DNA of 44,423 nucleotides from Gemmatimonadota bacterium (GTDB lineage Bacteria; Gemmatimonadota; Gemmatimonadetes; Gemmatimonadales; GWC2-71-9), in assembly GCA_003246755.1 (NCBI GenBank), contig QKDC01000157.1, forward strand, positions 1 to 44,423, in the 5' to 3' direction. Shown one piece after another: positions 26,731-27,291 of this stretch (positions are counted from its first letter, which is position 1; every line of letters starts with the position of its first letter). The translations under genes and the position numbers were made by a program. Under the pieces are notes generated by a model that was not told the origin of the DNA, made no database searches, and was given only the letters and a program-made list of their open reading frames with translations.

Positions 26731-27291
26731 TCACGACCCAGCCATCGTCTTCGCCACCGCCGCCTCGAGTTCACGATAGGCAGATGCGTCCACCTCGCGA
26801 AACGGTGCCATCACCTCTGCGATCTTTCCTTCGCGATCGATGATGAAGAGTGAGCGATTGTCGATGTTCCGTCCGGGTACGGTCGCGCCGTAGAGACGAC
26901 CCACGTCGCCCGAGATATCGCTCAGGAACATGAATGGGTAGTTCTTGTCTCTGGCCCAGGAATGCAGCGCCGAATCCGGGTCGGTGCTGATCGCGAGTAG
27001 GGTCACTCCCTCACCATTGTTGAAGATCTTCGCGTACTGATCACGGTACGCGTCCATTTGAATCGTTCAACCACTACTCCGGGCGCGATAGAAGAATGCG
27101 ATTACGACGACCTGACCTCGGAAATCACGGAGACTCACCAGCTCGCCGGTACCAGTTCGATCGGCCGAAATCAGAGTGAAATCGGGTGCCTCGGTTCCCA
27201 CTTCGAGAGGTCGAGGTGGTTCGGCCTGCTGTGCCTGAAGCGGACCCGCGAGGAGCGCCGGAATCACAGCGGCCAAGAGCAGTCGGTTCAT
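26731..27291 (-). CDS. selenocysteine-containing exported peroxiredoxin (AhpC/TSA family), in-frame TGA (Sec) at 27069..27067
   Basis: MNRLLLAAVIPALLAGPLQAQQAEPPRPLEVGTEAPDFTLISADRTGTGELVSLRDFRGQVVVIAFFYRARSSG-[TGA]-TIQMDAYRDQYAKIFNNGEGVTLLAISTDPDSALHSWARDKNYPFMFLSDISGDVGRLYGATVPGRNIDNRSLFIIDREGKIAEVM...; the two track ORFs (27067-27513 and 26731-27057) are in the same frame and TGA occupies the peroxidatic Cys position (S-x-x-U for T-x-x-C). Confidence 0.85.
27031..27052 (-). promoter_or_regulatory. candidate bacterial SECIS hairpin
   Basis: Minus-strand RNA after UGA: ACGAUUCAAAUGGA-CGCGUAC-CGUGAUCA-GUACGCG; perfect 7-bp stem, 8-nt loop with G at position 2, loop begins 21 nt after the UGA. 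Confidence 0.75.

Follow-up and report, generated by a model that had tools for sequence, protein, structure and literature searches.

In the published model of the bacterial selenocysteine (Sec) insertion element (bSECIS), a loop of 3 to 9 nt sits on an upper stem of 4 to 16 bp, the distance from the UGA to the loop is 16 to 37 nt, and the MFE is −7.5 kcal/mol or lower (PMC13188914, Fig. 2A; bSECISearch); the hairpin lies directly after a Sec-UGA inside the coding region, and one of its first two loop positions is a G, after which G or U is common (PMC13188914). The SECIS of Escherichia coli fdhF, which is recognised by SelB, has a bulged U17 and the loop bases G23 and U24 (PMC8659212). Peroxiredoxins (Prx) that contain Sec are already known, with the PF00578 domain and a TxxU motif (Sargasso Sea survey, PMC1088965; review, PMC13188914). 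In the literature that we searched, which is part of the whole literature only, we found no paper that has selenocysteine in Gemmatimonadota as its subject.

The window analysed here, a stretch of 44,423 nt from a Gemmatimonadota bacterium (contig QKDC01000157.1), carries on its minus strand a peroxiredoxin gene with an in-frame UGA and a hairpin directly after it (Table 1). We regard it as nearly certain that this hairpin is a functional bSECIS lying inside the reading frame of a selenoprotein gene, a peroxiredoxin. The first-pass annotation had described a perfect 7-bp stem and an 8-nt loop with G as its second base, starting 21 nt past the UGA, and had judged the hairpin to fit the general bacterial SECIS description. 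Between 27069 and 27031 of the minus strand we observed just this geometry, with 7/7 Watson-Crick pairs, and the loop (8 nt, beginning C-G-U), the stem, the G, the spacing and the MFE all lie within the published model; folding of the RNA after the UGA with RNAfold, which had been proposed as a check, returned the hairpin as the centroid structure at −10.5 kcal/mol. Numbering the hairpin with the U of the UGA as 0, the loop has G-U at positions 2-3 (G25-U26), like the E. coli fdhF SECIS. Unlike that element, the Gemmatimonadota hairpin has no bulged U, a larger loop and no sequence relation to it, and SelB would presumably be its ligand. U26 occupies a synonymous position at which codon usage would favour another base, and yet it is fixed, which would fit a base-specific reading by SelB. 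An Rfam search near the hairpin gave no meaningful match, and no bSECIS family was matched; a pattern search found ten places with a similar loop in the genome.

Table 1. Positions in the window of the peroxiredoxin gene, its neighbour and the elements around the UGA.
Feature	Positions	Strand	Remarks
Sec-peroxiredoxin gene	26731..27291	−	ATG at 27291, Sec75, stop TGA 26733-26731; 186 aa
Glucose/sorbosone dehydrogenase family gene	27288..28535	−	Upstream, overlaps the peroxiredoxin start (ATGA); PF07995, 40.3 bits
Codon R71 (CGG)	27079..27081	−	UGA genes strongly favour a purine as its third base; 12-10 nt before the UGA
UGA, predicted to be read as selenocysteine	27067..27069	−	Codon 75, peroxidatic Cys position
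Spacer between UGA and stem, 14 nt	27053..27066	−	Includes CAA (Q78), strongly favoured in UGA genes
5' arm of bSECIS stem, CGCGUAC	27046..27052	−	27051-27046, universal 6-bp core; 27052, variable outer base, nt 17
Apical loop CGUGAUCA	27038..27045	−	G and U as second and third bases; putative contact of SelB; identical in 206/212
3' arm of bSECIS stem, GUACGCG	27031..27037	−	27031, variable outer base, nt 38; covaries with nt 17

The gene product belongs to the AhpC/TSA family (PF00578, 95.8 bits against a Pfam cut-off of 26), and codon 75 aligns with the peroxidatic Cys of Rv2238c AhpE, a solved 1-Cys peroxiredoxin; the domain and the Sec at the peroxidatic position are shared with known Sec peroxiredoxins. 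The protein differs from these in that it scores below the cut-off of the NCBIfam equivalog for PrxU (peroxi_PrxU, NF040737; 55.5 bits, curated cut-off 270), has SxxU (TxxU in most relatives), has no other Cys in its translation and has a signal-peptide-like N-terminus. The PxxxTxxU motif is absent: this gene has YxxxSxxU and its relatives mostly F/YxxxTxxU, so that the Thr/Ser position is retained and the Pro is not. Because the motif is missing, the name peroxiredoxin is based on the domain and the Sec position, and the active site of the Sec enzyme deviates from the canonical PxxxT/SxxC motif. The codon of the motif Pro (codon 68, 27088-27090) encodes Phe or Tyr in 169 of 208 UGA genes, Tyr here, and Pro in 26/26 Cys genes. 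Homologs of the peroxiredoxin carry exactly one TGA, and ordinary ORF calling splits the Sec gene in two, as in the ORF list of the window. The dehydrogenase-like gene upstream is probably its operon partner. Tandem peroxiredoxin copies were also seen: two genomes (L077, L085) have a Sec copy next to a Cys copy, and two others (L116, L035) have two Cys copies.

Homologs were drawn from 288 genomes of the order, from 395 of the phylum and from 264 Gb of genome contigs scanned with a pattern, and the resulting Gemmatimonadota set consists of 212 unique UGA genes and 26 with Cys. The 6-bp core of the stem was found at the same spacing in 211/212 UGA genes and the identical loop CGUGAUCA in 206/212, a count that includes genes from an exact 20-mer scan, which have the core by construction; the 129 UGA genes of the order that came from the protein search alone, and are free of this bias, all keep the core. 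The 7-bp stem of the first-pass annotation thus holds for its own gene, whereas the universally retained stem has 6 bp. Compared with the generic bSECIS model, the Gemmatimonadota element is far more constrained in sequence, with the whole loop and the inner stem near-identical in 206-211 of the 212 genes. In contrast, the core was present in 3/22 Cys genes of the order and the loop in 0/22, so that equal conservation in Cys homologs, the result named beforehand as refuting, did not occur. At the UGA column, 129 of 151 homologs in the order have TGA and 22 have Cys (TGC/TGT), and the tree implies about 11 changes between Sec and Cys. The 264-Gb scan returned at least 118 stretches with the 20-mer core; all 118 listed belong to Prx genes and lie 15 nt past an in-frame TGA, and almost all of the matches listed are from Gemmatimonadota. 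An Anaeromyxobacter MAG (L254, JAHWYA010000143.1) has the same 20-mer after the UGA of a different, PrxQ/BCP-like peroxiredoxin (FFPKAFTPGUTREVRAYRDQY), which suggests that outside Gemmatimonadota the element was acquired by transfer or arose by convergence.

Covariation of the stem among UGA homologs, which the first-pass annotation had called for, was observed at its outermost pair. Among 144 nucleotide columns the highest corrected mutual information was that of nt 17 with nt 38 (z = 34; next pair, 12.4). Base 17 predicts base 38 as C-G in 38/39 genes, G-C in 73/78 (one GTC) and U-A in 33/37. The outer pair is A-A in 50/212 UGA genes, frequently in those from outside the order; with A at base 17, base 38 is A in 49/54, though GCA makes up only 6% of the Ala codons in those genes. 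Judged from these sequences, the A-A state is unpaired yet coupled, and selected. On a protein tree built without the columns of residues 81-86, nt 17 and nt 38 taken separately require 22 and 23 changes and the pair 26. The inner pairs are nearly invariant, and the compensatory evidence consists of the outer pair and one gene (L164), in which two simultaneous amino-acid replacements (A to T, A to V) turned the G-C of pair 2 into A-U. Strict tests on independent, well-supported branches involved few pairs and went in the expected direction, most with p above 0.05. With RNAalifold, 200 UGA sequences yielded the hairpin and nothing else, and 25 Cys sequences yielded no structure; the mean probability of the core pairs was 0.85 in UGA genes versus 0.10 in Cys genes.

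Could the conserved peptide AYRDQYA, written in GC-rich codons, give such a stem by chance, with no selection on the RNA? Taken by itself, the sequence in the window would allow it. The energy of the hairpin is ordinary (z = −0.78 for the 50-nt fold), and 39 of 200 shuffled sequences fold equally well. Under a null of synonymous codons (same peptide, family codon usage) the probability is 0.42 for the 6-bp core, 0.21 for 7 bp and 0.012 for the core together with the exact loop CGUGAUCA; the stem forms this readily since GC-rich codons make the RNA of AY...QYA almost complementary to itself. Folding of the single sequence is therefore ruled out as proof of the element, and the claim that the hairpin is independent support for Sec insertion is weak at this level and stands through the comparative data, on which the non-chance nature of the hairpin rests. 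Cys genes encode a similar peptide and mostly lack the core, and in UGA genes the codons of residues 81-86 have a homozygosity of 0.97-1.00 against 0.27-0.79 predicted from codon usage, while most other conserved residues are near expectation (a few columns, e.g. G74 and S124, are raised). Arg83 is CGT in 206/207 UGA genes, though CGT accounts for 10% of Arg codons, and Asp84 is GAT in 205/208, though its usage is 29%; the Cys genes have CGC and mostly GAC at these positions. Third-position changes on the tree number 0-3 at codons 81-86 and 23-59 at most other sampled sites. Together with the covariation of the outer pair, this codon-level conservation, which is restricted to UGA genes, refutes a chance origin, and we consider it extremely improbable.

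Two further explanations concern the UGA itself. It could be a sequencing error or the mark of a decayed pseudogene, with the hairpin incidental; nothing specific speaks for this, although a single gene in a draft assembly would be compatible with it. The homologs refute it: they share the TGA codon, their reading frame continues before and after it, and the downstream protein is conserved. The Sec machinery is also present, leaving this explanation a vanishingly small probability. SelA, SelB and SelD of this genome all score above their curated cut-offs, and selD itself contains a TGA, at the position that is Cys or Sec in this protein. Alternatively, the UGA could be read by another route (as Trp, as Cys or by plain suppression) and the hairpin could act in pausing or mRNA stability. 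This would agree with the failure to find tRNA-Sec in the assembly (190 contigs, 95.8% complete) by Rfam, pattern or BLAST searches, behind which an assembly gap is likely, and with 15 UGA-Prx genomes in which no SelB was detected, several of them incomplete and one 99% complete. Yet the gene terminates with TGA, the exchange partner of the UGA is Cys, and the spacing and loop agree with the bSECIS model. SelB also tracks the UGA-Prx genes, being found in 113 of the 128 genomes of the order that have them versus 3 of the 18 with Cys copies only (Fisher p = 8e-10), and ARAGORN found tRNA-SeC in 9/9 UGA-Prx relatives examined; among six SelB-negative control genomes, five had no match to the tRNA-Sec pattern and the match in the sixth was not a tRNA. 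On balance, decoding by another route is very improbable.

Two side observations came from the searches for the Sec machinery. The Rfam tRNA-Sec model RF01852 matched the genome at C153:3296-3380 with 54 bits (gathering threshold 47), and ARAGORN calls this a tRNA-Leu; we rejected it as tRNA-Sec, as well as the next matches in the Rfam list, which were tRNA-Ser and others. A tRNA-Leu that this model scores past its gathering threshold is a false positive to watch. In the selD gene (L048, G000:C127), a hairpin GGCGCAG-GUG-CUGCGCC lies downstream of the UGA, with loops such as GGUCU and GUC in relatives, and a G-U near the start of the loop is common to the selD and Prx hairpins.

For the Prx gene, then, we favour a bSECIS read by the Sec machinery. 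A ribosome that arrives at the UGA would meet the hairpin 14 nt downstream, which would recruit SelB with GTP and Sec-tRNA-Sec. SelB would most likely read the G-U at loop positions 2-3 along with other fixed bases of the loop, and Sec would be delivered to the A site in place of termination. The predicted product is an exported peroxidase of the 1-Sec type, in which Sec is the peroxidatic residue and a resolving Cys is absent.

UGA genes also show codon preferences on either side of the UGA. The codon of R71 ends in a pyrimidine (CGC/CGT) in 10/207 UGA genes, while CGC is used in 20/26 Cys genes, and Q78 (27058-27060, +9 to +11) is CAA in 165/207 UGA genes versus 4/26 Cys genes. Folding of the hairpin was rejected as the cause of these preferences, as synonymous changes made in silico at the two codons shifted its probability from 0.854 to 0.838 and 0.851. 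They may be extra signals around the UGA. A wider reading, which we offer tentatively and think rather unlikely, is a composite recoding signal of Gemmatimonadota Prx genes that goes beyond the classic bSECIS: the loop would be read base by base by a SelB of unusual sequence specificity, the outer pair would follow a rule (C-G, G-C, U-A or A-A), and the flanks would add two signals, a purine at −10 relative to the UGA and an A at +11. At the distance of this purine, contact between the message and the anti-Shine-Dalgarno sequence would be possible with the UGA in the A site.

Taken together, these results place a known kind of element, the bSECIS, in a peroxiredoxin family of Gemmatimonadota, and what is remarkable about it is the near-complete freezing of its sequence over the phylum. 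More than 200 genes with this near-frozen element, standing beside Cys homologs that lost it, amount to a natural experiment on the bases that SelB needs.
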